Of a stretch of 64,000 nucleotides of DNA, positions 3,490 to 63,414 are shown piece by piece. How positions within the stretch are numbered: position 1 is the first letter of the stretch; each line of letters opens with the position of its first letter. The notes under the pieces were generated by a model. That model saw only the letters and a list, made by a program, of their open reading frames with translations. It searched no databases and had not been told where the DNA came from. Source of the DNA: Falsiroseomonas stagni DSM 19981 (GTDB lineage Bacteria > Pseudomonadota > Alphaproteobacteria > Acetobacterales > Acetobacteraceae); assembly GCF_900114315.1 (NCBI RefSeq), contig NZ_FOSQ01000013.1, forward strand, positions 62,001 to 126,000, in the 5' to 3' direction. A program made the position numbers and the translations under genes.

Positions 3490-4281
3490 TCAGAACGGCC
3501 GGCTCAGGGTCACCAAGGCGCGGCTGTCGCAGGCCTTGGTGGAGCCGAAGCACTCGGACCGGCCGCTGCTCTGGTTCATGCTGTTCCACACCACCGTGCC
3601 GGTGCCGATGAAGCCGCCGAAGATCTCCCGCGACACGGAAAGCGACAGGGTCATGTAGTCGGGCGTGCCGAAATAGCCGTCGCGGCTGCCGGTGCGCGGG
3701 GCGATGTTGCGCTCGACCCACTGGTAGCCGAGGCGGGGCGAGATGGTGAACCCGTAGTCGAGCGCCATGTCGAAGCCGCCTTCGACATAGACGCCCGTGC
3801 CCGACTCGCCCGAGAAGTTCGGCGACCAGGCGGCGAGGCCCACGAACTTGACCGGCGCAACCTCATAGCTGGTGCGCAGCGCGAATTCGTAGAAGTTGAT
3901 GTCGAAGCCGCCGCGCAGCGCGGTGTAGCCGGGATAGGTGTAGTAGGTGCCGCCGATGTCGAGCTTCAGGTCGCCGAGGGCGAAGCGGTAGCCGGCGTTG
4001 TAGTCGATCTCCTGCCGTGCATTCGTCCCGGCGAAGGCGACGTTGCTGACGAAGGCGCCGACATAGAAGCCGCTGCTGTGCTCGGCATCGACCGTGACCT
4101 GCGCGGCGGGCCGGCCCCGCGTCTGGCTCAGGCCACGGAACAGGTAGTCGCTGGTGATGGCAGGCGTCGTCGTGACGGTCAGGCCGAGGCTGTCGATCGC
4201 GGTCTGGGCGTTGCCGGCCTGGGGGGCCATCAGCAGGCCGCCGCAAAGCGCCGTGGCGGCAAGGAAGAGGTTGCGGGCCAT
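3490..4281 (-). CDS. TorF/Gcw-type putative porin, copy 2
   Basis: Protein of 263 residues: signal peptide (MARNLFLAATALCGG...GNA), the conserved start LGLTVTTTPAITSDYLFRGLSQT, beta-strand-rich body and terminal Phe (VTLSRPF). It shares most positions with copy 1, including GTNARQE, GYRFA.GDLKLD, GYQWVERNI and the closing cysteine pair (ECFGSTKACDSR). It differs most in surface-loop-like stretches, as expected for paralogous porins with different permeation. It ends at a strong terminator and starts downstream of an AT-richer region (4330-4440) that is the likely promoter region. Confidence 0.85.
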   Translation of the reverse strand: MARNLFLAATALCGGLLMAPQAGNAQTAIDSLGLTVTTTPAITSDYLFRGLSQTRGRPAAQVTVDAEHSSGFYVGAFVSNVAFAGTNARQEIDYNAGYRFALGDLKLDIGGTYYTYPGYTALRGGFDINFYEFALRTSYEVAPVKFVGLAAWSPNFSGESGTGVYVEGGFDMALDYGFTISPRLGYQWVERNIAPRTGSRDGYFGTPDYMTLSLSVSREIFGGFIGTGTVVWNSMNQSSGRSECFGSTKACDSRALVTLSRPF

Positions 4282-48112: not shown

Positions 48113-50953
48113 TCACCCCGGCTCGATCACCCCGGCCTCGACCAGCTCCTCGAAGCGCCCGGCATGGGCGACGCGGCCTTCCTCGATCACCACGATGCGG
48201 TCTGCGCCGCGGATCGTCTCCAGCCGGTGCGCGATGACGATGCGGGTGCAGGTCATCCCCGCCACGGTGCGCGTCGTCACCGCCTGGGTGGTGGGGTCCA
48301 GCGCGCTCGTCGCCTCGTCCAGGATCAGCACATCGGGCCGGTTCACCAGCGCGCGCGCCAGCAGCAGGCGCTGCACCTGCCCGCCGGAGAGCACCTGCGA
48401 CGCATCAGCGATGGGCGTGCGCAGGCCCAGCGGCATGGCCCGCACATCCTCGGCGATGGCGGCGCCTTCCAGCGCGGCCCAGATCTGCGCCTCCGTCGCG
48501 TCGCTGAAGCCGCGCAGCGTGTCGATCAGCGCGCCGGGCGGCAGGGTCGCGCCCTGCAGCACGGTGCCGACGCGCCGCCGCAGCAGGCCGAGGTCGAGCG
48601 AGGCGAGGTCCTGCCCGTCATAGGCCACGGAGCCGAAATGCGGCCGCTCCAGCCCCAGCAGCAGGCGCACCAGCGTGGATTTCCCGCAGCCCGACCGGCC
48701 GATGATGGCGACGAATTCGCCCGCCTCCACCTCCAACTCCAGCCCCCGGAAGACCGGCTGTTCCGCCCCCTCATAGGCGAAGGCGACGTTGGACAGGGAC
48801 AGGTGGCCGGACAGGCGGCCGGGATCGATCCGCCCGGCCGTCGCCTCCGGCAGGGATTGCATCAAGGGCGCCGCATGGTCGCGCATCGCGTTCAGCGGGT
48901 GCAAGCCCATGAAGGCCGCGCCGAAGCCGGACGCCGCGCCATTGGCGATCATGAAGGCCATCAGGAAGCCGACCACCGCCGGCTTCGCGCTGGCGTCGCC
49001 GGCCGCGAAGACCACGAACAGCAGGCCGAGCGCGATGAAGGTCAGCGCGGCGGAGATGGCGGCGTGCCAGGTCTCCACATGCTCCTCCGCCAGCTTGCTG
49101 CCGCGCAGCGCCATGAAGCGCTCCGCCCAGCGGGCCAGCAGGCGCTGCTCCACGCCGGCCAGGCGCAGCTTGGTGATGCCGCTCACGGCCTCGATCGCCA
49201 GCGCATCGGCCGCGCCGGTCTGCGCCAGGCTGGCGGCATGGGCGCGCGTCTTCAGGATGCCCGCGCCGATGGAGAGGCCGAGTTGCAGCAGGATCAGCGG
49301 CAGCGCCACCACGGCGGCCATCGGAATATAGGCGAACAGCGCAGCCATGGCGGCGGTGAAGGTCGCGATCCCACCGATCATCGCCAGGCGGTAGTTCTTG
49401 CGCCCCAGCGGCACGGCCAATGCGACGCCGAGGCGCGAGGCGAGGTCGGACGGGTTGTGCCGCCGCAGCACCGGGATCGGCAGGCGCAGCAGCCGGTCCC
49501 ACAGCGCGGCATGCAGCGGCGCCTCCATCGTGGCCGTCATGCGGTGCTTGGCGATGTCGCCCGCCATCTGCACGACGAAATTGGCCAGCCCCACGCAGGC
49601 CAGCGCGATGCCGAGTTCCACCAGCCCGAAGCGGTTGCCGCCCGGGATCAGCGACCCCGTCGCGAAGGACATCGCGACCGGCATGCCAAGGCCGAGGAAG
49701 GCACCGATGACGGCGGCCCCGATCGCCAGCGCCTTGTCCGACCCATGCGGATGCACGAAGTGCTGCAACTGCGCCCAGCCCAGCGGCTGGTCCGGCAGCG
49801 GTTCGATCAGCGTCCAGGCGCGGGCTTCCAGCGTGCCGGCGACCGCCTCCGTCACCGCCACCGCGGCGGCGCCGGGCTTGTGGATGGCGTAGTGGCTGCC
49901 GGCGCGCAGCAGCGCCACAGCATCGCCCCCTTCCTCCCGCCCCAGCAGCGGGCCGAGGTCGCGCTTCCACCAATCCCCGGGCAGCGCCACCTGCCGCAGC
50001 CGCAGGCCGGAGGCGCGGGCGATCTCCTCCATGGTGGGGGGCGTGTCGATATCCTGTTCGCGCAGCCGGATCGGCCGCGTGATGCGCGGGCGGAGCCCCG
50101 CGGCCTTCGCGACCGCCACCATGGCGAGGAACAGCGGCGCCTCGTCCCGCCCGGGATCGGCTTCCGCCGGCGGGGGCGCGTGCAGCAGGGCGGCGGCGAT
50201 GCCGGCGGTGCGGCTTTCCGCCTCCCGGTCCTGGCGCGCCCGTTGTTCCAGCCGCCCGCTTTCGTCGATCTCCGCCAGGCTGCGCAGCCCCGGCAGCATG
50301 GCGACACAGGCCTGGGTGAAGGCGGCGATGCCGGCGGCCGCGTCATCCAGCGCCTCCGGCAGGACGCCGGCGAAGACCGGCGCCTCGAAGGCCGATCCCG
50401 CGACGATCCACGCCTGGGGAGGCAGGGGCAGCAGGCCGGAGACAGGTTCGAGGCCCAGCAGCATGGCCCCCTGGGCCGGCAGGCGCAGCCAGGCGCCGGC
50501 ACCGCGCGTGGTGGCGGATTGCCGGTCGGCCAGTTGCAGCATGCGGCCGGGCCGTGCCACGCGGTCGATGTTGGAAGGCCGCCAGAGCCGCGCGCCGAGC
50601 CCCTGGGCCAGCACGCCCGCCCAGCCCTGCATCGCCTCCAGCACCGCCTCCGACCCGCCCAGCGCGTGCAGCTGCGGCAGGCGGCGGAGCACCGCGCCGG
50701 CGGCGGGGCGGATCACCAGGCATTCGATGTCGGACTCATGCCCGACGACCAGGCTGCCTTCCTCCAGCCTGCCGACGAAGAGGTAGGGGCCGGGCGGCGC
50801 CACGCCCTCCTCCAGCCCCTCCACCGCGGCGAAGAGGTCGGCCTCCCCCCCTTCCAGCACCCAGAAGGCACCGGGCTCCGCCAGGCTGCGCGGGGGCTGC
50901 TGGAAGCGGCGATCGATCGTCTCGATCGGCAGCGTCGAGGTGAGCGTGTCCAT
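48113..50953 (-). CDS. NHLM-type exporter, second ABC permease/ATPase (ABC2)
   Basis: Protein of 946 residues. A long N-terminal part (about 1-370) has a cNMP/cupin-like start (AFWVLEGGEADLFAAVEG) and a middle region like a degenerate peptidase domain without catalytic Cys. It is followed by six membrane helices (about 410-680) and an ATPase domain with Walker A GRSGCGKST, ABC signature LSGGQ, and Walker B VLILDEATSALD. It matches the family-specific second ABC of NHLM/NHLP leader-peptide export systems. Last gene of the block; one base separates it from ABC1. Confidence 0.88.
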   Translation of the reverse strand: MDTLTSTLPIETIDRRFQQPPRSLAEPGAFWVLEGGEADLFAAVEGLEEGVAPPGPYLFVGRLEEGSLVVGHESDIECLVIRPAAGAVLRRLPQLHALGGSEAVLEAMQGWAGVLAQGLGARLWRPSNIDRVARPGRMLQLADRQSATTRGAGAWLRLPAQGAMLLGLEPVSGLLPLPPQAWIVAGSAFEAPVFAGVLPEALDDAAAGIAAFTQACVAMLPGLRSLAEIDESGRLEQRARQDREAESRTAGIAAALLHAPPPAEADPGRDEAPLFLAMVAVAKAAGLRPRITRPIRLREQDIDTPPTMEEIARASGLRLRQVALPGDWWKRDLGPLLGREEGGDAVALLRAGSHYAIHKPGAAAVAVTEAVAGTLEARAWTLIEPLPDQPLGWAQLQHFVHPHGSDKALAIGAAVIGAFLGLGMPVAMSFATGSLIPGGNRFGLVELGIALACVGLANFVVQMAGDIAKHRMTATMEAPLHAALWDRLLRLPIPVLRRHNPSDLASRLGVALAVPLGRKNYRLAMIGGIATFTAAMAALFAYIPMAAVVALPLILLQLGLSIGAGILKTRAHAASLAQTGAADALAIEAVSGITKLRLAGVEQRLLARWAERFMALRGSKLAEEHVETWHAAISAALTFIALGLLFVVFAAGDASAKPAVVGFLMAFMIANGAASGFGAAFMGLHPLNAMRDHAAPLMQSLPEATAGRIDPGRLSGHLSLSNVAFAYEGAEQPVFRGLELEVEAGEFVAIIGRSGCGKSTLVRLLLGLERPHFGSVAYDGQDLASLDLGLLRRRVGTVLQGATLPPGALIDTLRGFSDATEAQIWAALEGAAIAEDVRAMPLGLRTPIADASQVLSGGQVQRLLLARALVNRPDVLILDEATSALDPTTQAVTTRTVAGMTCTRIVIAHRLETIRGADRIVVIEEGRVAHAGRFEELVEAGVIEPG

Positions 50954-50954
50954 C

Positions 50955-53099
50955 TCAGGCCTCCTGCAGCATCAGCCGCGCGAAGGCGCCGCGGCGGGCC
51001 GCCAACTCCCCGGGCGGGCCCATCTCCACGATCCGGCCGCGCTCCATCACCACCACGCGGTCGCAATCGCGCAGCGGCGCCAGGCGATGCGCGATCACCA
51101 GCATCGTGGCACCCCGGCGACGGATGTTGGACAGCAGCTCGGCCTCCGTCTCGTCATCCAGCGCGGCCGTCGCCTCGTCGAAGACCAGGATGCGCGGGTC
51201 CTGCACCAGGGCGCGCGCGATCTCGATCCGCGCGCGCTGGCCACCCGACAGGTTCGTGCCGCCGCCGGCCACGGGGAAGGCGTAGCCCTCGCGCCGGTCC
51301 AGGATGAAGTCGTGGATCACCGCGTTGCGCGCCGCGGCGTGCAGGCGTTCCTCCGACACCGTCGGGTCCCACATCGCGATGTTGTCGCGCACCGTGCCGG
51401 TGAACAGGAAGCCGTTCTGGTCCACCACCTGCACGCTCTGCCGCAGCACGGCGCGGGGGATGTCGCGGATCGGCTTGTCGTCCAGCAGCACCTCCCCCGA
51501 CCAGGGCTCATGCAGCCCCGCCGCCAGCAGCGCGAGCGTCGATTTGCCGGACCCGGAGGCGCCGACGATGCCGACGCGCTCGCCCGGCTCGATCACCAGC
51601 GACACGCCGGTGATGAGGGGCGCGGCGCGGCGCGAATGCCCGAAGGTGACGTCGCGCAGCTCCACCTTCCCCTGCAGGCGCCGGATGAGGCGCGGCGCGG
51701 GCGGCGGCTTCGTGAATTCTTCGGACAAGGGATGGCGCAGCGTGTCGTCGAGCAGGCGGAGATTGGCGCCGGCTTCCTGCAGCCGCGGACCCAGTTGCAC
51801 CAGCCGCCCGACCGGCGCCAGGAAGGCGGATTGCAGGAACAGGAAGGCGACCAGCGCGCCGATGGACATCTGCCCATCGATGATGAGGCCGCCGCCCACC
51901 GCGATGGCCGCCGCCGCGGCGATGGTGGTGACCAGCCCCGGCAGGTACTTCAGCGCGGCCCGGCCCAGCATCAGCGATTGCCGCAAATTCAGCGCGCGGG
52001 CGCGCCGCGCCGTCAGCCGATCGAACAGCAGCGCCTCCGTCCCGCTGGCGCGGTAGCTGTCGATCATGCGCAGCCCCTGCTTGGCCTCCGCATCCTCCAG
52101 CCCCTGCTCGTTCAGCAGCCGCTGCTGATCCTCCCGCAGCCGGGCCGACAGCAGCAGCAGCGCCAGGCCGAGCGTCGCGGCGCCGAGCGCGGAGACGAGG
52201 CCGAGCCGCCAGTCGAACAGCACCAGCACCGCCAGGTAGGTGACGGCCATGATGAGGGCGAGCATCGTGCCGCCGATCTCCCGCGCCACCGTCCCGGCCA
52301 CGCGGTCGTTCAGCATCACCCGGTCCGCGATGCCCGCCGCGCCGCGCTGGCCGTAGAAGGACAGCGGCAGGCGCAGCACGCGTTCCATGAATTCGATCCC
52401 GCCGCGCACCGCGACACGGGTTTCCAGATTGTGCTGCAGCGTCTTCTGCATCCAGGTGCAGAGCGCGGCGAAGAGCCCCGCGCCGAAGACCACCAGCACG
52501 ATCGGCCACAGCCAGGCGACGATGCCGGCCGACATCACGCGATCCAGGAATACCTGCCGGAAACTCGGCTGCAACACGCCCGGCACCGCCAGCATCAGGC
52601 TGATCCCGATGGCGAGCCATACGGCCGCGCTGCCGCCCTTCAGGCGGTCCGCCAGCCCGCGCAGCGCACTCGGCGCGCTGCCGCCGCGCTGGAAGTCGGG
52701 GCCGGGCTTCATCATCAGCAGCACGCCGCTGAACTGCCGGCGCAGCTCCCGGTCATCCACCCGGCGGCGGCCGCGGGCGGGATCGTTCACGCACCACAGG
52801 CCGCCGGACTTCCCTTCGAGCACCAGGAAATGGTCCATGCCCCAATGCAGGATGGCGGGGCAATCGGCCTGCTCCAGCGCCTCCGGCTCGCAGCGCACGG
52901 CGCGGACCTCGAAGCCCAGCTCCCGCGCCGCGGCCACGATGTGCTGCGCCTTGCTGCCGTCGCGGGATACGCCGCAGCGCGCGCGCAGATCCTCCAGCGT
53001 CAGCCACAACCCGTGATGCGCCGCGATGATGCCAAGGGCGGCGGCGCCGCATTCCGCCGCCTCCACCTGCAGGATGGTCGGCGTGCGCATCGCCATCAC
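50955..53099 (-). CDS. NHLM-type exporter, C39 peptidase/ABC permease/ATPase (ABC1)
   Basis: Protein of 714 residues. An N-terminal C39 cysteine peptidase (1-125) has Cys17 in QVEAAECGAAALG, His90 in HWGMDHFLVLEG and Asp106 in NDPARG, a complete triad. Six membrane helices (about 160-430) and an ATPase with GASGSGKST, LSGGQRARIEIARAL and ILVFDEATAALD follow. C39 domains cut after a double glycine as the cargo is exported. Cargo is very probably the GG-leader protein two genes upstream. Overlaps the HlyD-like gene by 4 bp. Confidence 0.95.
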   Translation of the reverse strand: MMAMRTPTILQVEAAECGAAALGIIAAHHGLWLTLEDLRARCGVSRDGSKAQHIVAAARELGFEVRAVRCEPEALEQADCPAILHWGMDHFLVLEGKSGGLWCVNDPARGRRRVDDRELRRQFSGVLLMMKPGPDFQRGGSAPSALRGLADRLKGGSAAVWLAIGISLMLAVPGVLQPSFRQVFLDRVMSAGIVAWLWPIVLVVFGAGLFAALCTWMQKTLQHNLETRVAVRGGIEFMERVLRLPLSFYGQRGAAGIADRVMLNDRVAGTVAREIGGTMLALIMAVTYLAVLVLFDWRLGLVSALGAATLGLALLLLSARLREDQQRLLNEQGLEDAEAKQGLRMIDSYRASGTEALLFDRLTARRARALNLRQSLMLGRAALKYLPGLVTTIAAAAAIAVGGGLIIDGQMSIGALVAFLFLQSAFLAPVGRLVQLGPRLQEAGANLRLLDDTLRHPLSEEFTKPPPAPRLIRRLQGKVELRDVTFGHSRRAAPLITGVSLVIEPGERVGIVGASGSGKSTLALLAAGLHEPWSGEVLLDDKPIRDIPRAVLRQSVQVVDQNGFLFTGTVRDNIAMWDPTVSEERLHAAARNAVIHDFILDRREGYAFPVAGGGTNLSGGQRARIEIARALVQDPRILVFDEATAALDDETEAELLSNIRRRGATMLVIAHRLAPLRDCDRVVVMERGRIVEMGPPGELAARRGAFARLMLQEA

Positions 53100-54430
53100 C
53101 GCTGCGCCACGGTGGTCGCGGCCGGCGCGGCGGCGCTATCGGTCGTGACGCGCACATCCTCCCCCAGCCATCGCTGCAAGGCGGGCAGGCCGAGCGCGAT
53201 CATCCGCACCTGGCGCACCGTGGCCTGCATGCCGACCGGCGTGCCACCCTCGATCGAGAAGGCGGGACCGCTGCCGCCGGACCAGACATGGCGGCCGCGG
53301 GCGTCGTGCTGCAATTCGATGTTCACCTCGAACAGCGTGCGCTGGTTGCGCTGGAATTCCGATACCAGCGCATCGTTCTGCAGCGTGCGGAGCATGCCCG
53401 CGCTGCTGGCCGGCGTATCCGCCACCCGCAGCACGCGGCCGCGCAGGAAGCCGTATTCCTGCGACGGCGCGGTGGCGGGGGAGAGGTCGACCGTCATGCC
53501 TGGCTGAAGCTTCTTGCCGTCCTGCGCGCCGACATAGACCAGGCCCACCAGCGATCCCGTGCCCGCTGCCGTGTCGCTGCGCACCAGCGTCAGCAGCGGG
53601 CCGCCGCGGCTGACCACCTGCCCGACATTCGCCTTCGCCTCCACCACGCGGCCATCGAAGGGCGACCGGACCGCCCCCATCCGGTAGATGCGGTCATTCA
53701 GCGTCGTCACCTGGCGTTCCGCCGTCGCCACGCGCTGGTCGGCGGTCAGCATGTCCCGCTCCCGCTGCGTCTGGCGCATCATCGCGTCCATCTCCAGCAC
53801 GCGGCGCTCGTTCTGGAGGCCCTCGATCTGGTCGCGCACGCCGAACAGCTCGATCTGCGCGCCGATGGCGCGGTCCCGCGTGGCCAGCGACCGGTCCGCC
53901 AGATCCCGCACCACGCCCTCCCGCTCCGTCAGCAGGCGGAGGCGATCCTGCGCGGCGCGCAGGCTGCGGGCGAGCCCTTCATCCCGCGCGGCGCGCCAGG
54001 CGCGGTCCGCGGCCTGTTCGCGCTCCTGGAAGCGACGCATCTCCGCCCGCGCCGTCTCGGCATCCCGCAACTCACCCTCCGCCGCGGTGAGTTGCAGGCG
54101 AAGCTCCGCCTGGTCCACCACCGCGACCACGCTGCCGGCGGTGACGAGATCCCCCGGCCGCGCGGTGAATTCCACGACGCGCCCCTCGGTGTCGGAGACG
54201 ATGTCGGTCAACCCGCCGGCGGAGAGCAGGATGCCCTGGCCGTTGATCTTCACCGGCACGTTGGTGACGGCGGACCAGCCGATGAGGCCCAGCGTCAGCG
54301 CGCCCAGCACGCCCCACAGGATCTTCAGCGGCGGGGGAACCACCTCCAGCGCGTCCTCCACCGTGGTGACGGAGGTGGCGGAGGCGACGGCCTCCGCACG
54401 GAACAACGGGGGGTTGCCGGGGTTTTCCAT
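53096..54430 (-). CDS. NHLM-type exporter, HlyD-like adaptor
   Basis: Protein of 444 residues. One membrane helix (about 36-58; LKILWGVLGALTLGLIGWSAV), then the biotinyl-lipoyl half GRVVEFTARPGDLVTAGSVVAVVDQ, a long coiled coil (about 115-245; LRDAETARAEMRRFQEREQAADRAW), the second half GAVRSPFDGRVVEAKANVGQVV, and a beta-barrel end. Bridges the ABC exporters to the outer envelope. Overlaps ABC1 by 4 bp; separated from the cargo gene by 92 bp with a hairpin. Confidence 0.9.
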   Translation of the reverse strand: MENPGNPPLFRAEAVASATSVTTVEDALEVVPPPLKILWGVLGALTLGLIGWSAVTNVPVKINGQGILLSAGGLTDIVSDTEGRVVEFTARPGDLVTAGSVVAVVDQAELRLQLTAAEGELRDAETARAEMRRFQEREQAADRAWRAARDEGLARSLRAAQDRLRLLTEREGVVRDLADRSLATRDRAIGAQIELFGVRDQIEGLQNERRVLEMDAMMRQTQRERDMLTADQRVATAERQVTTLNDRIYRMGAVRSPFDGRVVEAKANVGQVVSRGGPLLTLVRSDTAAGTGSLVGLVYVGAQDGKKLQPGMTVDLSPATAPSQEYGFLRGRVLRVADTPASSAGMLRTLQNDALVSEFQRNQRTLFEVNIELQHDARGRHVWSGGSGPAFSIEGGTPVGMQATVRQVRMIALGLPALQRWLGEDVRVTTDSAAAPAATTVAQR

Positions 54431-54491
54431 GGGCGTGCATCCGCGTCAGGGCGTGAAGCCGAGGAAGGCGTGAAGCGGGAAGGCGATGGAA

Positions 54492-54514
54492 CGGGGCGCC
54501 GCGAGGGCGCCCCG
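54492..54514 (-). promoter_or_regulatory. Intra-operon hairpin between cargo and exporter genes
   Basis: A perfect 9-bp GC stem (CGGGGCGCC/GGCGCCCCG) just after the cargo gene stop (54523) and before the HlyD-like start. No T run, so partial termination or 3' protection is more likely than full termination. It would allow more cargo than exporter to be made. Confidence 0.55.
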
Positions 54515-54522
54515 CCGGGCGA

Positions 54523-55683
54523 TCAGAAGCGGAAGGCGCGACGGATCTTGCGGCCCACCTTCTTCGCGGCCTCCTTCGCCTTGTTCGCCGCATCGGCGGC
54601 CGCCTTCTCCGCCGCGGCCTTCGCATCGGCCGCGGCCTTCTCGGCGGCCGCCCGCGCATCGGCCGCCGCCTTTTCCGCCGCCGCCTTGGCCTGCGCCGCG
54701 GCCGCGTCAGCCTGCGCCTTGGCCTGTGCCGCTGCCTTCTCGGCGGCCGCCTTCGCCTCGGCCGCCGCCTTCTCCGCCGCCACCTTGTCCGCGATGGCCT
54801 TGGCTTCGGCGGCCGCCTTGAGGGCGGCATCGCTGGTCGCCTCGGCACCCTTCACCGCGGCATCCGCGATCGGCTTGGTGTCGACGGTCACGCTGGCGCC
54901 GGCGTTCAGCCCGCCGATGCCGACCGCGGCTTCCCCGCCCAGGCCCAGCGTGACCTTGCCCTTGTCCAGCGCCGCCGTGCCGTTCAGCCCGACACCCGCC
55001 GAGCCCGGATCGACATAGCCGACGGAGCCGGTGCCGGAGGCTTCCTTGGTGCCCACGGTGACCGAGGCGGTGATGGAGCTGTAGGCGCCCGCCATCACTT
55101 CCGCGCCGGCCTTCACGCCGGTGACACCGACGCTCATCTGCCCCTCGACGCCGGCCTTGACGCCGACTTCCGTCGTCGTACCCGTCGTGGCCGTCACGCC
55201 CTTGCCCAGATTATGCTCGGTCTCCACCGTCACGCTCACGGTGCCGCCGATGCCCGCGACGCCGGACACGCCCACATTCGTCACGCCGACCTGCGCGCCG
55301 ACCATGACGCCGGCCGCGGCTTCCGCCGTGACGGTGGTGGTGACGTTGCCCTCCGTCTTGGTGCCGGTGATCGACGCGAAGGCGCCCGCGCCGGCGGAAG
55401 CGCCGACACCGGTCATCGAGACTTCGTAGCCCGCGCCGGCAAAGGCGCCGGCCTGGCCCGTCACCGTCACGCCGCCGATCTCCTTCGTCGTCGACACCAT
55501 CGCGCCCACGCCGACGCTGTCGGACTTCACGACCGGACCGCTGATCGCGACGCCGTATTCGACGTCATCCTCCTTGCCGTCGCTGGCCTGTGTGCTGGAC
55601 TGGATGGCGCCGCTGCCGCCGACGACGGCGGCAAGCATGGAATCGTCGAGCTCCACGAAGGCGGGCTTGGTGACAGCGTTCAT
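54523..55683 (-). CDS. Large double-glycine leader protein, predicted exporter cargo
   Basis: Protein of 386 residues. The leader 1-23 ends ELDDSMLAAVVGG with L-12, L-7, V-4, G-2, G-1, matching a C39 double-glycine site (cut after Gly23). The mature 363 residues have no Cys or Trp. Residues 24-270 are Gly/Ala/Val/Thr/Ser-rich with three imperfect repeats (84-107, 127-151, 178-207; pattern TGVxAxAxAxA...SIT), probably beta-rich or membrane-active. Residues 272-375 form an Ala/Lys/Glu helix with AAAEKAAA repeats, like TolA or colicin translocation rods. The tail KKVGRKIRRAFRF is strongly basic. Located between the RsbW-like gene and the exporter. Family not recognised; a toxin, adhesin or matrix protein are all possible. 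Confidence 0.75.
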   Translation of the reverse strand: MNAVTKPAFVELDDSMLAAVVGGSGAIQSSTQASDGKEDDVEYGVAISGPVVKSDSVGVGAMVSTTKEIGGVTVTGQAGAFAGAGYEVSMTGVGASAGAGAFASITGTKTEGNVTTTVTAEAAAGVMVGAQVGVTNVGVSGVAGIGGTVSVTVETEHNLGKGVTATTGTTTEVGVKAGVEGQMSVGVTGVKAGAEVMAGAYSSITASVTVGTKEASGTGSVGYVDPGSAGVGLNGTAALDKGKVTLGLGGEAAVGIGGLNAGASVTVDTKPIADAAVKGAEATSDAALKAAAEAKAIADKVAAEKAAAEAKAAAEKAAAQAKAQADAAAAQAKAAAEKAAADARAAAEKAAADAKAAAEKAAADAANKAKEAAKKVGRKIRRAFRF

Positions 55684-55807
55684 CGGCGGGCATTTCCCTG
55701 GCAGACGGGGCGATGGGGGAACCGTTGGCCGTCATGACCCGGGTTCCCGGAACGCGCCGCATCCTGCGGGCAGCCGGATGATGCAAGCGTGCCGGTTACG
55801 CGGTGGT

Positions 55808-56242
55808 TTATGCGGCGCGCTGGAACAGCCGTTCGACCGAAAAGCGGTTCTCGCCCTGCTCCCGCGCATAGTGCTGAGCGTCCGTCATCTGCCGCACGAG
55901 GAACATGCCGAGGCCACCGATCGCGCGATCATCGACCGCCGCCTCGATGTCGGGGTCCTGCTGCACGGTGGGATCGAAGGGCGTGCCGTCATCGATCGTG
56001 GTCAGCCGCACGCGCAGCCCGCCGGCTTCCGGCACGGCCGCCAGCTCCACATGGAACAGGCCGGCCTCGCCTTCCGGCCAGGCGCAGCGGGCGATGTTGG
56101 TGACGATCTCCTCCGCCACGAGGCGAAGCTGCATCGCCTCCGTCATCTCGGCGCCGGCATCGACCAGGTGCTCCTCGATGCTGTCGAGAAGCTGGCCGAC
56201 CGCCGCATCGTCGCGCCGGCAGGAAAGCCGGATCACCGCCAT
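55808..56242 (-). CDS. RsbW-like ATP-binding (anti-sigma type) kinase
   Basis: Protein of 144 residues, HATPase_c_2 fold: N box RLVAEEIVTNIARCAW, G1 DDGTPFDPT, and GGLGMFLVRQMTDAQHYAREQGENRFSVERLF. Such proteins phosphorylate an STAS anti-anti-sigma protein and hold a partner. Here no STAS gene is seen in the window; the partner is unknown. Follows the PP2C gene after 4 bp. Confidence 0.85.
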   Translation of the reverse strand: MAVIRLSCRRDDAAVGQLLDSIEEHLVDAGAEMTEAMQLRLVAEEIVTNIARCAWPEGEAGLFHVELAAVPEAGGLRVRLTTIDDGTPFDPTVQQDPDIEAAVDDRAIGGLGMFLVRQMTDAQHYAREQGENRFSVERLFQRAA

Positions 56243-56246
56243 GCCG

Positions 56247-58304
56247 TCACGCGCAAGCCAGCGCCACCGGGCCGGGATCGGCCGGATGCCCCGCGGATGA
56301 GGTGCCGCGCCAGTGCAGCGCCAGCATCGTGATATCGTCCGCCTGCGGCTCGGTATCCGCGAAGGTCTCGACCTGCAGGGCGACGGCATCGACCAGCTGC
56401 GCGGGTTCCGCCAGCGAGGGATCGGCCACGATCGCGGCCAGGCGGTCATCGCCGAACAGGATGTCGCCGGGCGCCACCGCTTCCGTCACGCCATCGGTGA
56501 ACATCAGCACCATGTCGCCGGCCTCCAGCGTGATCTCCTGGTCGATGAATTCCATGCCGTCCATGACGCCAAGCGCGATGCCGCGCGCCACCGGCAGCTC
56601 CGCCTCCCCACTCGCGCCACGGCGGCGGGGCGCGTTGTGGCCGGCATTGGCGTAGGTCAGCAGGCCCGTGCGGCAATCCAGCACGGCCGCGAAGGCAGTG
56701 GCGAACATCATCGTCGGGTTGTCGGTGGACAGCACGTCATTGGCCTGGGCCAGCGCCTCCGCCGGGCTCGCGCCCCTGCCGATGGCCGCCCGCAGCAGGC
56801 TGCGCGCCATGGCGATGAAGATGGCGGCATGCACGCCCTTGCCGGAGGCATCGCCGATCAGCAGCGCCAGGCGGTGTTCGTCCAGCATCACGAAGTCGCA
56901 GAAATCGCCGCCGACCTCCTTCGCCGGCACCATCGCGGCATGCAGGCGGAATTCCGGCAGCTGCGGGAAGGTGGTCGGCACGGAGGACAGCTGCAGGCGC
57001 CGCGCGACGTCCAGCTCCTCCCGCATCCGGTTCAGCTGGGTGCGTTCCTCCAGCGCCTGGCGCACCAGAGCGAGGTCGCGTGTCCGCTCCTCCAGCAGCT
57101 GCGCCATCGCCGCGTGCTGCTGCACGACAAGGCCGGACAGCCGCGTGAAGGCGGGGCCGAGTGCCGCGCCCTCCCCTTCCAGCAGGCCCAGGATCTCCTG
57201 CCGCTCCGGCCCGTCCAGAACGGCGGTCAGGCGCGCGATCTCCTGCCCGATCAGCGCGCGCTCCCGCAAGGCGGAGAGGCGGTTGCGGGTCTGCAGGCGG
57301 TCCAGCGCCAGGGTGTTGCTGCGAAGCGCCTCCAGCGCCGCCTGGATGGCGCCGACCTCATCCCGCCGCGTGGCGATGGCGGCGGAGGCGAAGATGTCGC
57401 CCCCCGCCACCGCCTGCAGCGCGCGCGCGAGTTCGCTGAGCGGATCGATGGCATCGCGGATGACGCGATAGAGCAGCCCGCAGGTGACGGCGGCCGCCAC
57501 CACCAGCAGCGCGCCGGCCAGCAGCAGCAGCAGCTGGCGCGACTGCGCCTCCGCCGTCGCATCCGCCAGCACCAGCACCTGGCCCACGCGCGCCCCCGCG
57601 GAATTGTAGAGCGGCGTGGCCTCCACGCGGAAGATGCGGTTGCCGAGGCTGACGGACTGGCCTTCCCGCAGCGTGGCCGCGCCATCGCGCAGCCCCTGGT
57701 CCGTGGCGAAGAGCACCGCGCCCTGCCGGTCCCGCAGCAGCAGGTCAGCGCCCAATTGCCGCGCCACGCGGTCCAGAGCGCCATCCGCCGGCATGCTGGC
57801 CGAAAGCAGGTCCCCGCCGCCCGTGCGCAGGCTGACCACGAGCAGCATCGGCCCATCCGCCGACGCCTCGAACCGCGCGGAGATGCCATCCCGCGGCAGG
57901 TCGCGCTGCAGCGCGGATGCGCCGCTGGCCAGCGGTTCCGCCATGGCCGGCGCGGCCGCCAGCAGCTGGCCCCGCGGGCCAACGATGTCCATGCGCGCGG
58001 CGGGCCCCTCAAGCCCCAGCGCCGCCCGCAGCGCCGCCAGGCGCTGGCGCAGCGCGGATTCGTCATGCGCCGCGCTGGCCGACAGCAGCGCCTCGTCCAC
58101 CGACGCCTGGCGCAGCGCGGCCAGCAGCGGTGCCGCGGCACGTTCCACCGCATCATTCAGGGTGGCGGATTGCAGCCCGGCGCGAAGGGCGGCGGCGCGA
58201 TCCTCCCCGTCGCGCAGCACGAGCCAGGCCGGCACGGCGACGGAGGCCGCGACCAGCGCCATGGCCAGGGCGAAGAGCAGCAGGATGCGGGATCGAAGCA
58301 GCAT
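56247..58304 (-). CDS. Membrane SpoIIE/PP2C phosphatase with sensor and HAMP
   Basis: Protein of 685 residues: membrane helix 8-28, periplasmic sensor about 32-240, second helix about 252-273, HAMP about 274-327, coiled coil about 335-440 (EERTRDLALVRQALEERTQLNRMREELDVARRLQ), and PP2C domain about 450-655 with metal motifs KEVGGDFCDF and IGDASGKG, NAGHNAP, and MFTDGVTEA. Directly senses an outside signal and dephosphorylates a partner. Coupled closely to the RsbW-like gene and to the binding-protein gene (4 bp each side). Confidence 0.92.
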   Translation of the reverse strand: MLLRSRILLLFALAMALVAASVAVPAWLVLRDGEDRAAALRAGLQSATLNDAVERAAAPLLAALRQASVDEALLSASAAHDESALRQRLAALRAALGLEGPAARMDIVGPRGQLLAAAPAMAEPLASGASALQRDLPRDGISARFEASADGPMLLVVSLRTGGGDLLSASMPADGALDRVARQLGADLLLRDRQGAVLFATDQGLRDGAATLREGQSVSLGNRIFRVEATPLYNSAGARVGQVLVLADATAEAQSRQLLLLLAGALLVVAAAVTCGLLYRVIRDAIDPLSELARALQAVAGGDIFASAAIATRRDEVGAIQAALEALRSNTLALDRLQTRNRLSALRERALIGQEIARLTAVLDGPERQEILGLLEGEGAALGPAFTRLSGLVVQQHAAMAQLLEERTRDLALVRQALEERTQLNRMREELDVARRLQLSSVPTTFPQLPEFRLHAAMVPAKEVGGDFCDFVMLDEHRLALLIGDASGKGVHAAIFIAMARSLLRAAIGRGASPAEALAQANDVLSTDNPTMMFATAFAAVLDCRTGLLTYANAGHNAPRRRGASGEAELPVARGIALGVMDGMEFIDQEITLEAGDMVLMFTDGVTEAVAPGDILFGDDRLAAIVADPSLAEPAQLVDAVALQVETFADTEPQADDITMLALHWRGTSSAGHPADPGPVALACA

Positions 58305-58308
58305 GGCG

Positions 58309-59292
58309 TCAGACGGTCTCCGCCACGCGCAGCAGGCCGACCGGCGGGAAGGACCGCAGGCGCCGCGCGCTGTCCATGCGGACGAGGAAGGACATGCGGG
58401 TCAGCGTCTCCACCGGGATGGATTCAGCGGCGCGGCCCTCCCGCAGGATCTGTTCCGCCTTGAAGCCGGTGAAGGCGCCCACGCTGTAGTAGCGGCTGAC
58501 GAGGCCCGCGAGCCCCTCGGCGAATTGCACGAAGCGCTCGGTCGCCGCGAAGGTCGGCAGCCCGTGGTCCAGCGCCGCCTGCGTCAGCACCATGCGGTGG
58601 TCGTTCAGGAAGGTGTCGGGCGGGATGTAGAGCCAGTCCACCCCCGCCGCGCGCGCCTCCGCCACCCGGCCGGGGATGGAGGCCGGGTCGGGTCGCCGCG
58701 CGGGATCCAGCGCCACCGGCAGTTCCACCAGCCCCGCGCCCAGCAGCGCGCGCATCTGCGCGACGACGGACAGCGAATTGCGTTCATTCGGATTGAAGAT
58801 GGCGGCGACGCGGGAGAAGGGGCGGTAGCGCGCCATGGCGCGCATCTGCACCTCGACCGAGGCGATGTATTCCGTGCCCGTCACCGCGCGCCCCGGCGAT
58901 TCGCCACTGCGGATGAGGCGGTTGCCGACGGGATCGGTGACGATGTTGAACACCGCCGGCACGCCGGTGATGTGCCGCGCCGGATCGGCCGCGTCCCATG
59001 GCCCGAGCGCCGCGATGGCGAGCGAGGTGCCCCAGACATAGACCAGGTCCGGCTTCGACTCCCGGATCTCCGCCACCATGACGGGCAGGCGGCGCAGATC
59101 CTGCGCCACGTCCCGCACCGTCAGTTCCACCGGGATGCGCCGCGCCGCGAAATGGTCGCGGAAGCCGTCGCAGGCTTCCTCCCAGCCGCGGAACAGCAGC
59201 ATGGTGATCCGGTGGGGCCGCGCTTGCGCGATGGCGGGGGCCGCCAGCAGCAGTGTCGATGCGGCGACCAGGCCGCGCCGTCGGATGATCAT
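58309..59292 (-). CDS. ABC-type substrate-binding protein (PF04392-like)
   Basis: Protein of 327 residues. Signal peptide IIRRRGLVAASTLLLAAPAIAQA. Pattern like the TrpX/ABC_sub_bind family: ITMLLFRGWEEACDGF, LVYVWGTSLAIAAL, ITGVPAVFNIVTDPVGNRLI, VAAIFNPNERNSLSVVAQMR, LYIPPDTFLNDHRMV, PTFAATERFVQFAEGLAGLVSRYYSVG. No permease or ATPase accompanies it, so it may present a ligand to a sensor in this block (inference). Overlaps the MFS-fusion gene by 4 bp. Confidence 0.87.
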   Translation of the reverse strand: MIIRRRGLVAASTLLLAAPAIAQARPHRITMLLFRGWEEACDGFRDHFAARRIPVELTVRDVAQDLRRLPVMVAEIRESKPDLVYVWGTSLAIAALGPWDAADPARHITGVPAVFNIVTDPVGNRLIRSGESPGRAVTGTEYIASVEVQMRAMARYRPFSRVAAIFNPNERNSLSVVAQMRALLGAGLVELPVALDPARRPDPASIPGRVAEARAAGVDWLYIPPDTFLNDHRMVLTQAALDHGLPTFAATERFVQFAEGLAGLVSRYYSVGAFTGFKAEQILREGRAAESIPVETLTRMSFLVRMDSARRLRSFPPVGLLRVAETV

Positions 59293-61316
59293 GCCAGGGC
59301 CTCCCTTCGTGCCCGGCCCAGCAGCAGGGCCAGGGCATAGGCCAGCGCCGTGGCGGCGGAGACGATGCCCAGCACGAGCATCGCCTGCTGCCCGCCGCCC
59401 GCCGCCAGCAGCGCCGCCGCGGCCGGCGGGCCGACGACGCTGCCGATGCGTTCCGCCAGGCGCAGGAAGCTCATCATCGCGGCCGAACTCGGCGCGCCCG
59501 GGCGCAGGCTGAGCGCCGGGATCATCGCCAGCATCGGCGCGGCCGCCAGGCCCTGCGCGACGCCGGTGGCGATGACCGCCAGCGGCAGCGCGGTCTCCGC
59601 CGGCAGCCACAGCGGCGCCAGCAGCCCCGCGCCATTCAGCAGCCCCGCCGCCACGATGATGCTGCCGCCGCGGCCGGACCGGTCCGCGATCCAGGCACCG
59701 ATCATGATCGCCGGCAGCATGCAGAGGCCGTAGAGCATCACGTTGCGCCCGATCGCCGCCTGGCTCAGGCCAAGCTCCCGCAACTCCAGCGGCGCCAGGA
59801 AGAAGACGAAGCCGCCCAGCAGCACCTTGGCGGGAATGGCCGCCAGCAGCACCAGCATCAGGAAATGCGGCTCCGCGAAGGCCGCTCGGGCGGATTGCCA
59901 CAGGCCGAGGCGCTTCTCCTCCGCCGCGCCACCCGCCGGCAGGCACCGCCAGGCCAGCGCCGCGACGCCGAGGACGAGCAGCGCGGAGACGATGAAGGTG
60001 AGCCGGAAGCCGAGCCGGTCCGCCAGCACGGCGCCGATCGCGGTGCCGCAGACCGCCCCCGTCATCACCGCCGCGGTGAAGCCGCCCAGGCTGCGCGCCA
60101 TGCGGCCGGTCGATGCCTCCCGCGCCAGCTGTACCTGGCAGGCGATGGTGACGATGGCGTAGCCCGCGCCGCAGATGGCCCGCGCGGCGGACAGGGTGAC
60201 AAGGTCCGGCGCCAGCGCCGCGCCGACATGGCCGATGCCGGCGGGCACCATGCCCATCAGCAGCGCGCGGCGCGGGCCGTGGCGCGACACCATCTGCCCG
60301 CCCCAGGGCGTCAGCAGCGCGACGGCGGCGACGAAGGTCACCAGCGGCAGCGCCGCGCCCAGCATCCCCGCCTGCCCGCCCGCGAGTTCCATGGCGAAGA
60401 TCGGGTTGAAGGAGGTCGAGAGCTGTTCGGCGAAGACGAAGAGGAACAGCGGCAGCCGCGCCGATGCGGCACCGCCGCCCAGCCCTTCCCGCAGCGATTC
60501 GGCGCCGAAGCGCAGGCGGTCGCGCACGCCATCCAGCGCCGCCGCGGCGCGGCGGCCGGCACCGCTTTCGCCCGCCAGCCAGCACAGCCGGTCCCAGCGG
60601 TCATTGGTGCGGCGCACCAGCACGTTGAAGTGGCGCGCGACGCGCCCGGCTTCCGCGCCGATGTCGCCCGGCGCGCGCACCGTCCAGTCGCCGCGGGACA
60701 GCCGCGATTGCAGCCGCAGCACCATGTCGATCGGCGCGGCGACGAGGCGGGAGAGGATGAAGCGCAGGAATTCCGCGGTGGCCAGCAGCACCACCAGCAG
60801 CACGATCAGAACGTCCCACCGCATGTCGTCGAGTGCGGTGTCCAGCCGCGCGCGCGCGATGCCGACATGCAGCCAGCCCGCGACCTGGCCTTCCTCCATC
60901 AGCGGCTGCGCGGCATCGTAGCTGCCGCCCTGCACGCGCATCAGCGCGCCGCGGCTGGGCGCTGGCGTGCCCGCGGACAGGCCCGTGAATTCCGCCGGCG
61001 CGCTGCCCGCCACGGCGACGACGCGGCCGCTGGCATCGGTCAGCAGCAGATAGGCGAGCCCCTCCCGCGTCGAGAGCAGGCCGGCCAGGTATTCATCGAG
61101 GCCCGACAGCCCCGCGAAGGGCACGCCGAGGTCGAGCGCCCGCTGCACCGCCTGCGCGCCGATGCTGCCGACCACCGTCGCCTCCCGCTCCAGCTCCGGC
61201 CGCAACTCCGTCTCGAAGCTGCGGAGCGCGGCGGAGGAGACGAAGCCGACGGCGAGCGTCAGCAGCAGCACGGCGACGGCGACGACGCTGCCGACCAGGC
61301 GGCGATCCGGGGTCAT
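59289..61316 (-). CDS. Cache-HAMP sensor fused to an MFS-type transporter
   Basis: Protein of 675 residues. Membrane helix 10-30, extracellular sensor about 33-165 (LAYLLLTDASGRVVAVAGSAP; GQVAGWLHVGIARARLD), second helix about 170-190, HAMP-like segment about 190-240 (RLVAAPIDMVLRLQSRLSRGDWTV). From about 275 the rest is a 12-helix MFS domain with WGGQMVSRHGPRRALL, AARAICGAGYAIVTIACQ and WIADRSGRGG. An uncommon joining of a signalling input to a transporter body. 4-bp overlaps on both sides. Confidence 0.87.
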   Translation of the reverse strand: MTPDRRLVGSVVAVAVLLLTLAVGFVSSAALRSFETELRPELEREATVVGSIGAQAVQRALDLGVPFAGLSGLDEYLAGLLSTREGLAYLLLTDASGRVVAVAGSAPAEFTGLSAGTPAPSRGALMRVQGGSYDAAQPLMEEGQVAGWLHVGIARARLDTALDDMRWDVLIVLLVVLLATAEFLRFILSRLVAAPIDMVLRLQSRLSRGDWTVRAPGDIGAEAGRVARHFNVLVRRTNDRWDRLCWLAGESGAGRRAAAALDGVRDRLRFGAESLREGLGGGAASARLPLFLFVFAEQLSTSFNPIFAMELAGGQAGMLGAALPLVTFVAAVALLTPWGGQMVSRHGPRRALLMGMVPAGIGHVGAALAPDLVTLSAARAICGAGYAIVTIACQVQLAREASTGRMARSLGGFTAAVMTGAVCGTAIGAVLADRLGFRLTFIVSALLVLGVAALAWRCLPAGGAAEEKRLGLWQSARAAFAEPHFLMLVLLAAIPAKVLLGGFVFFLAPLELRELGLSQAAIGRNVMLYGLCMLPAIMIGAWIADRSGRGGSIIVAAGLLNGAGLLAPLWLPAETALPLAVIATGVAQGLAAAPMLAMIPALSLRPGAPSSAAMMSFLRLAERIGSVVGPPAAAALLAAGGGQQAMLVLGIVSAATALAYALALLLGRARREALA

Positions 61317-62089
61317 GGCGCGGCGGGCTCCGGCACGGGGGTGGATTCGGGCAGCGTGGCGGCGATCGCCTCCAGCCGTCGCTCGGCATCGGACAGCACG
61401 GCATCGGCTTCCGCGATCGCCTGCTGCAGCCCGGCGGCAAGGGGTTCTGCGGCCGCGCCGGGCTGCATCGCGCCTTCCACCGCCGCGAACCAGCGGCGGG
61501 CCTGGCGCGTCACCAGGTGGATGCCGAGAACGCCGAGCGGCACGGCGAAGGCCAGCGCCAGAAGCCCCGCCTTCACCATGCCGAGCAGCGTGGCGGTCAG
61601 GCGTTCATCCACCGCGTCGCGCCCGTAGCGCAGCAGCACCGCGCCTTCGAGCTGCCCGAAGCCGTTGATGATGGGCGCGCCGATCCCGTGCCGCGCGCCG
61701 TCGCGGAAGCGCCAGGATTCCGCCGCCGCACGCGGATCGAACAGGTCGCGCGGCAGGGTGGCGCCCAGATTCTGGCGATCCGTGTCGAACAGCACCACGC
61801 CATCGGAATCCGCGATGGCCAGGCCGCCGATCAGCGGTTCCGCCGCGCGCGACCGTTCCAGCAGCGCCTGCGCGCCCGGCACGCCGGCCAGCCGAACGCC
61901 GAGTGCCAGCGAATTCTCCACCGTGGCGCCGAGCTCGACGGCCAGGATCTCCAGCACCTTCGCCTGCTGCTCCAGCAGCATGCGTTCGAACTTCAGGTAG
62001 TTGAGGCCCGCCGTCAGCCCGCAGCCCAGCAGCAGCATCATGGCGATGACGCCGCCGAGCCGCGCGGCGAAGGACGCGCCCCCCGTCAT
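61313..62089 (-). CDS. Membrane sensor protein (single Cache-like)
   Basis: Protein of 258 residues: membrane helix about 11-31, extracellular domain about 34-165 (GLAIADSDGVVLFDTDRQNLGATLP; GAPIINGFGQLEGAVLLRYG), second helix about 172-197, then a short helical cytoplasmic tail. No output domain, so it probably signals by pairing with the neighbouring sensor-MFS or PP2C protein. The start overlaps the formyltransferase gene by ATGA. Confidence 0.75.
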   Translation of the reverse strand: MTGGASFAARLGGVIAMMLLLGCGLTAGLNYLKFERMLLEQQAKVLEILAVELGATVENSLALGVRLAGVPGAQALLERSRAAEPLIGGLAIADSDGVVLFDTDRQNLGATLPRDLFDPRAAAESWRFRDGARHGIGAPIINGFGQLEGAVLLRYGRDAVDERLTATLLGMVKAGLLALAFAVPLGVLGIHLVTRQARRWFAAVEGAMQPGAAAEPLAAGLQQAIAEADAVLSDAERRLEAIAATLPESTPVPEPAAP

Positions 62090-62880
62090 GCGGCGGCGCT
62101 CCACCGCACCGCGGCGGCGGGCTCGCGGGGCGGGAAGGCGGCGGACAGGACCTCCGCGAAATCCTGCGCGTTGACGATGGGCACGGGCAGCGCCGCGAGA
62201 TCCTCCGGCGCGGGGAAGCGGTAGTAGTGGCCGCCCTCCGGCTGCCTGGTGCCGGCGGGGGTGCCGCCACGCGCGATGGTGGCCGCTGCCTCCGCCGCGA
62301 TGGTGACGCCGCCGCGATACAGCGCGGCAGTATGCGCCATGAGCGACCGGGACGGGTCGAAGGGCACGCGCGCGATGCCGAGGATGGGGCCCGTATCGAT
62401 GCCCCGGTCCACCATGTGCACGGTGCAGCCCAGCACGGGCTCGCGCTTCAGGATCTGCCAGAAGGGCGCGAAGAGGCCGCGATAGCCCGGCAGCGCGCCG
62501 GGATGGACGTTGATGATGCCGCGCGGCACGGCATCGATCACGCGCTGCGGGAAGATCAGCGAGAAGCGCGCGGAGATGACGAGGTCCGGCCTGAAATCCA
62601 GCAGCTGGCGCGCGCCGCCATCCGCCTTCAGATCCAGCAGCGGCGTCCATTCATCGGGATGCGGCACCTGGCCGAAGCCGGTTTCCAGCGTCGCGAAGGT
62701 GTCGATAGCGACATCGCGTTCCAGCAGCTTCATGATCTTCAAGGCCGGAACAGCATTCTCCGCATCCCGCGTCTTCACGCTGCAGAAGAAGCGGAGGTCG
62801 GCGAATTGGAGGCGTTCGGCCAGGATCCGGGCCGCGAGCAGGCCGTGGATGTCCTTCTTGACGCAGAGCGCGATACGCAT
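62086..62880 (-). CDS. Formyltransferase-domain protein
   Basis: Protein of 264 residues. Formyl-transferase core: GIINVHPGALPGYRGLFAPFWQI with the catalytic Asn and His, then VHMVDRGIDTGPIL with the catalytic Asp. The tRNA-binding C-terminal domain of Fmt is missing, so this is not the housekeeping enzyme. It resembles sugar N-formyltransferases or hydrolases of the family. First gene of the export block; 4-bp overlap with the sensor gene. Confidence 0.83.
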   Translation of the reverse strand: MRIALCVKKDIHGLLAARILAERLQFADLRFFCSVKTRDAENAVPALKIMKLLERDVAIDTFATLETGFGQVPHPDEWTPLLDLKADGGARQLLDFRPDLVISARFSLIFPQRVIDAVPRGIINVHPGALPGYRGLFAPFWQILKREPVLGCTVHMVDRGIDTGPILGIARVPFDPSRSLMAHTAALYRGGVTIAAEAAATIARGGTPAGTRQPEGGHYYRFPAPEDLAALPVPIVNAQDFAEVLSAAFPPREPAAAVRWSAAA

Positions 62881-63003: not shown

Positions 63004-63414
63004 CTATCCGCAGACGCGAACGGCTTCGGGGCCCTCGAACCCCTCGAACTCCGCCAGGTGGTCGGCGGCCTCGATCCATTGCAGCAGGCCGGGTTCCGCG
63101 GTGATGCGGGCGGTGCCCTGGATGATGCGGGTGGCGGAAATCGCGCTCTGCCGGCGATAGGACAAGGTCAGGCCATCATCCGCGATGGTCCAGTCCAGCA
63201 CCGGCAGCGGCTTGCAGAAGAACAGCAGCCGCACGGCGATGGTGCCGGTCCGGTTCGCCTCCAGCAGCAGGCGGGCCTGGCCGCTATCCCCGTTCAGCTT
63301 CGCCGTCCGCCCCACCCATTCCTGGAACGGCGGCACGCGGAACCGCGCCCGCGCCGGCAGGGCGAGGAGGAGAAGCGGCGTGGCGAGGGCGGCGCGGCGG
63401 GCAAGGGCAGGCAT
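63004..63414 (-). CDS. Hypothetical exported protein
   Basis: Protein of 136 residues: signal peptide (MPALARRAALATPLLLLALPARA), then beta-rich sequence VPPFQEWVGRTAKLNGDSGQARLLLEANRTGTIAVRLLFFCKPLPVLDW. Family not recognised. Beyond its start lies a short gap (63415-63521) without a gene. Confidence 0.6.
   Translation of the reverse strand: MPALARRAALATPLLLLALPARARFRVPPFQEWVGRTAKLNGDSGQARLLLEANRTGTIAVRLLFFCKPLPVLDWTIADDGLTLSYRRQSAISATRIIQGTARITAEPGLLQWIEAADHLAEFEGFEGPEAVRVCG

Follow-up and report, generated by a model that had tools for sequence, protein, structure and literature searches.

Does a run of ten co-oriented genes that places envelope sensors, a phosphatase and a putative kinase beside a protein exporter form a single stimulus-controlled secretion system, or have its parts come to lie together in some other way? 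The question is raised by a minus-strand block in a 64,000-nucleotide stretch of the Falsiroseomonas stagni DSM 19981 genome (contig NZ_FOSQ01000013.1, positions 62,001 to 126,000; hereafter, the window), which the initial annotation presented as one system unlike any described. We find that the block is two joined units, a sensing cassette and an exporter of the NHLM type with its cargo gene, and genome comparison argues that, within the genus, the link between the two is not a matter of chance. That a sensing module similar to the btr locus of Bordetella has been joined here to an NHLM-type exporter, and probably controls whether the cargo is made or exported, is a reading to which we give roughly even chances.

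The ten minus-strand open reading frames (ORFs) and the spacings between them are as first described, and the domain names proposed then are borne out by Pfam and NCBIfam searches, the protein that had been called simply a sensor being modelled as a Cache domain. The cassette encodes a formyltransferase-like enzyme (FMT), a membrane-anchored sensor (sens), a Cache-HAMP-MFS fusion, a periplasmic binding protein (SBP), a SpoIIE phosphatase and an RsbW-like ATPase. Gaps of 124 and 92 bp flank the cargo gene and set it apart from both units.

Linkage was followed in 15 genomes of the genus, the source genome included, by searches for the MFS fusion and for the ABC2 subtype, and in the GTDB contig collection, where the MFS-fusion search led to 15 named loci. 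Eight of the 15 genus genomes carry the MFS fusion. ABC2 proteins at least 68% identical to that of the window are encoded in seven of them, and the cargo in exactly these seven, each time beside the cassette; in none of the 15 was this exporter subtype or the cargo found without the cassette, and the eighth cassette-bearing genome (G011) has the cassette alone. The correlation of cargo with cassette that had been suggested as a check is present. The suggested conserved neighbourhood holds for the cassette, with the order FMT-sens-MFS-SBP-SpoIIE kept in all 15 named loci, but extends to the exporter in only six. In a five-protein tree with 16 loci, a clade without the exporter (L070 and L072; L069 uncounted) is nested among loci that have it. 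This pattern is explained most simply by a single gain and a loss thereafter, and the cassette-exporter junction probably goes back to one shared event.

The sensing core is found well beyond the genus. A profile search (E 1e-40; some matches not full length) gave matches in 32 of 385 genomes of the class and 10 of 398 of the phylum, and 20 neighbourhoods, that of G605 not among them, were examined. The contigs that carry the core at L021, L023, L126 and L169 measure 3.5-5.5 kb. The sens, MFS and SBP genes occur together in 18 of the 20 (the SBP gene is on the opposite strand at L163 and L164 and runs off the contig at L169; a separate sens is missing at L172, and L126 is cut), and the SpoIIE catalytic part is present in 10. 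Secretion genes stand in six of the neighbourhoods, five with components of a type VI secretion system (T6SS) and one with those of the type III secretion system (T3SS) family (Table 1). As a control, the position of TssB was determined across the 385 class genomes, of which 70 carry it, 10 of the 32 core-bearing ones included. Three of these 10 have TssB no more than 25 kb from a core match, where uniform placement would lead one to expect 0.115 (Poisson P = 2.3e-4). Given that its relatives stand beside quite different export machines, the core may be a control unit for secretion that can be reused. At L176, L170 and L171, sens-MFS-SBP is at the head of T6SS operons (VgrG, PAAR, TssA, Hcp, TssB, TssC; partly by eye), and a DUF3369-HD response regulator is encoded upstream at L176 and L158. 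Class matches to the MFS part alone were read at five loci (L183-L187); the MFS match in Azospirillum sp. B510, with its unrelated neighbours, was rejected and serves as a useful negative for matches of this kind.

By gene content and annotation names alone, the closest described locus is btr of Bordetella. As listed in a review of Bordetella type III secretion, that locus comprises genes for STAS, kinase, alanine racemase, MFS, SpoIIE and ABC transporter proteins and a gamma-glutamylcysteine synthetase, beside the bsc T3SS, and the functions of the racemase, MFS, ABC and synthetase products are given as unknown (PMC7498569); BtrU, BtrV and BtrW are each required for T3SS secretion, and none acts as a negative regulator (PMC7498569, PMC8256260). 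The likeness lies in SpoIIE, STAS, kinase, MFS, an 'ABC transporter' protein and amino-acid enzymes beside a secretion system, and an alanine racemase also adjoins the core at L168. In the window, by contrast, the neighbouring machine is an NHLM-type exporter and not a T3SS, the place of alr/BtrM is taken by a formyltransferase, and there is no STAS gene and no recognized BtrA/BtrS-like gene; a T3SS-family apparatus stands beside the core at L162 only. An open-access literature search found no paper on the cassette outside Bordetella, but the view that the block matches no described system was too strong, given that the exporter type has been described (PMC2887384) and btr is similar in gene content (PMC7498569). 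RbaV/RbaW/RbaY of Rhodobacter capsulatus, also an alphaproteobacterial partner switch, has no identified cognate sigma factor and affects production of the gene transfer agent; the abstract of that report mentions no comparable sensor cassette (PMC3999984).

If the btr-like module does control the exporter, a ligand outside the inner membrane would be read by the SBP and the Cache domains, and this reading would set the phosphatase activity of SpoIIE. A periplasmic binding protein working with a membrane receptor is known from LuxP/LuxQ, which resembles the cassette in this respect but has a two-component output and neither MFS nor SpoIIE. In relatives, SpoIIE would act on the neighbouring STAS protein and thereby alter its binding to the RsbW-like kinase; in the clade without STAS, the target of SpoIIE is perhaps an unlinked STAS protein. 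The NHLM-type exporter would cut the cargo leader after the double glycine (GG) and secrete the cargo, and the cassette, by analogy with BtrU/V/W in Bordetella T3SS secretion, may gate cargo production or export, both the output and the direction of control being presumptive. Should this be so, a little-understood Bordetella regulatory locus becomes one case of a widespread, portable secretion-control module, and non-pathogenic species become available in which the ligand, the enzyme product and the output could be found.

Several observations weigh against this coupling. The exporter was not found beside the cassette in eight of the 15 named loci. In a family sample of 249 genomes, 17 encode an HlyD protein over the TIGR03794 cut-off, 15 of these without the MFS fusion, and six encode the MFS fusion, four of these without an over-cut-off HlyD; NHLM exporters in general, thus, need no cassette, nor does the cassette need them, and the tie is with the present exporter subtype, whose ABC2 was searched for in the genus only. 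Because the seven genomes that show this tie probably inherited a single joining of the units, they are not independent. Among the 20 neighbourhoods outside the genus, 12 have no recognized secretion or RND genes, and in 10 the catalytic part of SpoIIE does not appear (the matches at L159 and L160 cover its N-terminal half alone; some contigs are short); carriage of T6SS is weakly enriched (10 of 32 core-bearing genomes against 60 of 353 others, Fisher p = 0.056), and in the source genome TssB is on a different contig from the cassette. Neither a sigma factor nor any other output was recognized in the block, no genome-wide sigma search having been made, and the match of BtrO and BtrN with the MFS and SBP proteins is one of annotation names. 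Finally, STAS is missing in the window and at L063, L064, L065 and L074, and RsbW at L064, L065 and L074, with L064 and L065 retaining SpoIIE and the exporter. The original proposal of stimulus-controlled secretion is consistent with the genus link and with the recurrence of the core near other secretion machines, albeit in a minority of loci; that of one system does not survive, the cassette being a separate module.

Much of this would be expected if the units were joined once and kept as co-inherited neighbours, with no functional coupling and with the cassette controlling something elsewhere, for example, via an unlinked STAS protein. The exporter-less named loci, the NHLM-bearing family genomes without the cassette, a tree that agrees with a single gain and a single loss, the two clear unlinked STAS genes of the source genome (one beside its own HATPase) and the gaps that part the cargo from both units all fit such a history. 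It is at odds with the absence of the exporter subtype and cargo from every cassette-less genus genome, and with the recurrence of the core near unrelated secretion machines; we regard it as a genuine possibility, although one that we incline against. Chance adjacency, which was to be recognized by cassette and exporter regularly occurring apart, is only partly supported: the cassette and broad-sense NHLM exporters do so, and the present subtype, as searched in the 15 genus genomes, was not found without the cassette. A further alternative is that transport is the main task of the sens/MFS/SBP core, which would be a secondary transporter aided by the SBP and fitted with sensing, and that the secretion genes are incidental. 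The strong MFS_1 score and the adjacency of an ABC_sub_bind protein to the MFS, with no ABC partners in the cassette, would suit this explanation, but the extra Cache and HAMP parts, the adjoining SpoIIE or cyclase receptors and the cores heading T6SS operons point to signalling, which makes it decidedly improbable.

The missing STAS gene invites yet another explanation, namely, that the partner switch is being lost in the STAS-less clade and the exporter is no longer under its control. STAS follows the conserved order in 11 of the 15 named loci and RsbW in 11 (at L069, the contig ends before RsbW), and SpoIIE, STAS and RsbW are all present in 10 (L069 uncounted). No ORF of at least 60 codons between window positions 47000 and 64000 matches the STAS profile, so that of the phosphatase-kinase pair noted originally both members are present but the usual STAS partner is not. 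Loss of STAS in Falsiroseomonas looks like a single event because the four STAS-less loci share one side of a fully supported branch of the tree, in which the loss at L074 is independent. Decay would account for the absence of STAS from these four and of RsbW from two of them, and for the 75% identity of RsbW between the window and L063, compared with 87-95% for the other six genes compared. However, RsbW is also the most divergent protein between the STAS-bearing pair L067 and L071 (76% against 80-89%), and the STAS-less clade is thus not alone in having a divergent RsbW; the ratios of nonsynonymous to synonymous substitution (dN/dS) between the window and L063, 0.09 for SpoIIE and 0.10 for RsbW (with noisy dS estimates), make both look to be under constraint; SpoIIE is 87-91% identical among the STAS-less loci; and SpoIIE without local STAS or RsbW is also found at L074 and L157. 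We therefore consider decay unlikely, and the coupled reading leaves us with natural strains that are without the middle partner of a partner switch. Elsewhere in the source genome are two clear STAS genes (a third match is weak), one of them adjoining its own HATPase, and one further SpoIIE; these unlinked genes are candidates for cross-talk. A STAS-HATPase pair at L113 (8659-9415, source genome contig C30), beside an apparent phosphate uptake operon (by eye), is a possible second partner switch.

Table 1. Features of the block (window coordinates) and secretion or efflux genes near the sensing core at other loci
Locus	Coordinates	Strand	Feature	Evidence or components
Window	62086..62880	-	FMT, formyltransferase-like enzyme, cassette gene 1	PF00551 69.9 bits
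Window	61313..62089	-	sens, membrane-anchored single Cache sensor	Modelled
Window	59289..61316	-	Cache-HAMP-MFS fusion	MFS_1 102.3 bits
Window	58309..59292	-	SBP, periplasmic ABC_sub_bind protein	PF04392 60.9 bits
Window	56247..58304	-	HAMP-SpoIIE phosphatase, N-terminal membrane/periplasmic part	SpoIIE 165.1 bits
Window	55808..56242	-	RsbW-like HATPase_c_2 protein, kinase/anti-sigma candidate	PF13581 58.6 bits (longer ORF)
Window	54523..55683	-	Cargo, 386 aa, GG leader	Leader end ..LAAVVGG, residue 23
Window	54490..54516	-	Hairpin directly after cargo stop codon, without T run	Weak evidence
Window	53096..54430	-	NHLM-type HlyD membrane-fusion protein	TIGR03794 225.9 bits
Window	50955..53099	-	ABC1, C39 peptidase-permease-ATPase	Peptidase_C39 110.5 bits; start GTG 53099 or ATG 53096
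Window	48113..50953	-	ABC2, permease-ATPase, N-terminal extension of ~270 aa	TIGR03797 572 bits, aligned from residue 272
L157			T6SS	Clp-type AAA, VgrG, TssB
L158			T6SS	Hcp; TssB 22 kb away
L170			T6SS	VgrG, TssC
L171			T6SS	Hcp, PAAR
L172			T6SS	Clp-type AAA (Pfam), remainder by eye
L162			T3SS family	FlhB/YscU, FliP family, EscN-type ATPase C-terminus (Pfam); injectisome, not flagellar, by eye
L154, L166			RND pumps	Within the 20 neighbourhoods
L074			T6SS genes	Outside the 20
L022			T6SS (VgrG-like)	TssB 22 kb away; outside the 20
L176			T6SS, Vibrio megaplasmid	By eye; outside the 20
L180			T6SS, same genus as L172	By eye; outside the 20
L075			RND pump	Outside the 20

The individual cassette proteins fit a sensing role to different degrees. 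FMT has matches by profile to structures of Fmt, a sugar N-formyltransferase and PurN, and its residues N124, H126 and D162, which we take to be the catalytic triad, are invariant across 12 homologues. Both sensory parts of the MFS fusion score under cut-off (sCache_3_2 26.9 against 28.4; HAMP 16.6 against 25), as does the HAMP domain of the SpoIIE protein (23 bits against 25); relatives of the fusion occur elsewhere in the class, elsewhere in the phylum and on a Vibrio megaplasmid. The SBP profile matches structures 6hni, 3lkv and 3lft, and none of the ten genes encodes an ABC permease or ATPase to go with it. A protein at L159 related to the N-terminal half of SpoIIE has dCache_3-HAMP joined to a nucleotide cyclase. 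Ser/Thr protein kinase genes adjoin the cassette at L077 (15991-18168) and L068 (1-1815), both without the exporter. The closely related cassette loci L069, L072 and L070 come from metagenome bins that carry the labels Sphingomonadaceae, Asaia bogorensis and Roseomonas mucosa, respectively; since the tree hardly separates L069 from L072, some of these labels are probably wrong.

Judged by profile matches, the exporter belongs to the known NHLM/NHLP type: its HlyD protein exceeds the TIGR03794 cut-off of 156.2 bits, and the best NCBIfam matches of ABC1 and ABC2, each by a wide margin, are TIGR03796 (804.8 bits, below the cut-off of 853.3) and TIGR03797 (below the cut-off of 709.4 bits). A C39 peptidase domain is matched by Pfam in ABC1 and not in ABC2. 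According to the 2010 report on NHLP, the exporter itself is more widespread than NHLP (PMC2887384), and NHLP-type exporters are noted in Legionella (PMC6959600). The combination of HlyD, C39-ABC and a second ABC protein conforms to this type, but the neighbouring candidate substrate, at 386 aa with a 23-aa GG leader, has no NHLP or Nif11 leader match, and no precursor of either kind was recognized beside the exporter. No outer-membrane partner was found among the ten genes, with no genome-wide search made. PADLOC matches were limited to both ABC ATPases (two models), and a defence system was rejected. Five of the 15 genus genomes have another ABC2-like gene elsewhere (36-42% identity); the two of these neighbourhoods that were read, L109 (5337-12718) and L107, hold a different NHLM-like exporter with an RTX-like protein nearby (by eye), which at L109 has a visible double-glycine leader.

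The cargo, which we infer to be the substrate of this exporter, consists of the leader, a Gly/Val/Ala/Thr-rich middle and an Ala/Lys-rich tail with a basic end; among homologues, leader and middle are conserved and the tail varies in length. It has no Pfam or NCBIfam match, a plasmid search gave none, and among 242 sampled family genomes it was found in two, both from Falsiroseomonas; on sequence grounds, it appears to be a family of no known kind, seen solely in one genus. NHLM-type exporters would, with it, gain a new, large candidate substrate family. The AlphaFold 2 (AF2) model was set aside as too poor for use (mean pLDDT 39). Five of the seven cargo-bearing genus genomes have an unlinked second copy, which in the source genome (L102 9596-11071, contig C11) encodes 491 aa with a GG leader and has no NHLM HlyD or ABC2 match on its contig; in G000 and G001, too, the contig with the second copy carries no such match, and at L103 an ORF resembling an ordinary ABC exporter lies ~2 kb from the second copy (by eye). 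The hairpin after the cargo gene is predicted in six of the seven loci and missing from L071. That it keeps cargo mRNA high is only a thought, since, set against shuffles, the intergenic stretch is nothing unusual in the window (z -0.31) and stands out only modestly in the other five loci (-1.3 to -2.6).

The enzyme gene near the core varies between lineages; the counts that follow are given without a background rate of such enzymes near any gene. A formyltransferase is present in all 15 named loci and at L154 and L161. GNAT proteins are over cut-off at L155, L158, L177 and L179 and below it at L167 and L168, and GNAT-like proteins are recognized at L159, L160, L162 and L166 by a shared alignment and a weak PDB match, those at L159, L162 and L166 having no Pfam match of their own. 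PanB-like enzymes are found at L156 and, by eye, L157, and ATP-grasp proteins at L159, L160, L163 and L177 and, in a related architecture, at L182, L184 and L186; by eye, no enzyme occupies the slot at L165, L170, L171, L172 and L176. Because several of these enzymes act on amino acids or similar molecules, one can speculate that the core is an autoinducer-like circuit for a self-made signal, in which the lineage-specific enzyme makes a small, probably amino-acid-derived molecule that is transported or sensed by Cache-HAMP-MFS and picked up by the SBP and Cache receptors, whereupon the adjoining secretion machine (NHLM, T6SS, T3SS or RND) is switched through SpoIIE or a cyclase, Bordetella btr being one member; as a whole, this proposal is rather doubtful. 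The ATP-grasp proteins at L182, L184 and L186 resemble D-Ala-D-Ala ligase and lie beside a sensor-MFS fusion, and the next protein at L184 is an ABC_sub_bind protein.

In the analysis of the window, no sigma-70 promoters were predicted, terminator-like sites numbered 3 against 2.7 in shuffles, and the Rfam search returned tRNA only. Upstream of FMT, positions 63004-63414 encode a small signal-peptide-like protein that, among the 15 named loci, is kept only in L063-L065. Two adjacent minus-strand ORFs at 2487-3284 and 3490-4281 have signal-peptide-like starts that are nearly alike.

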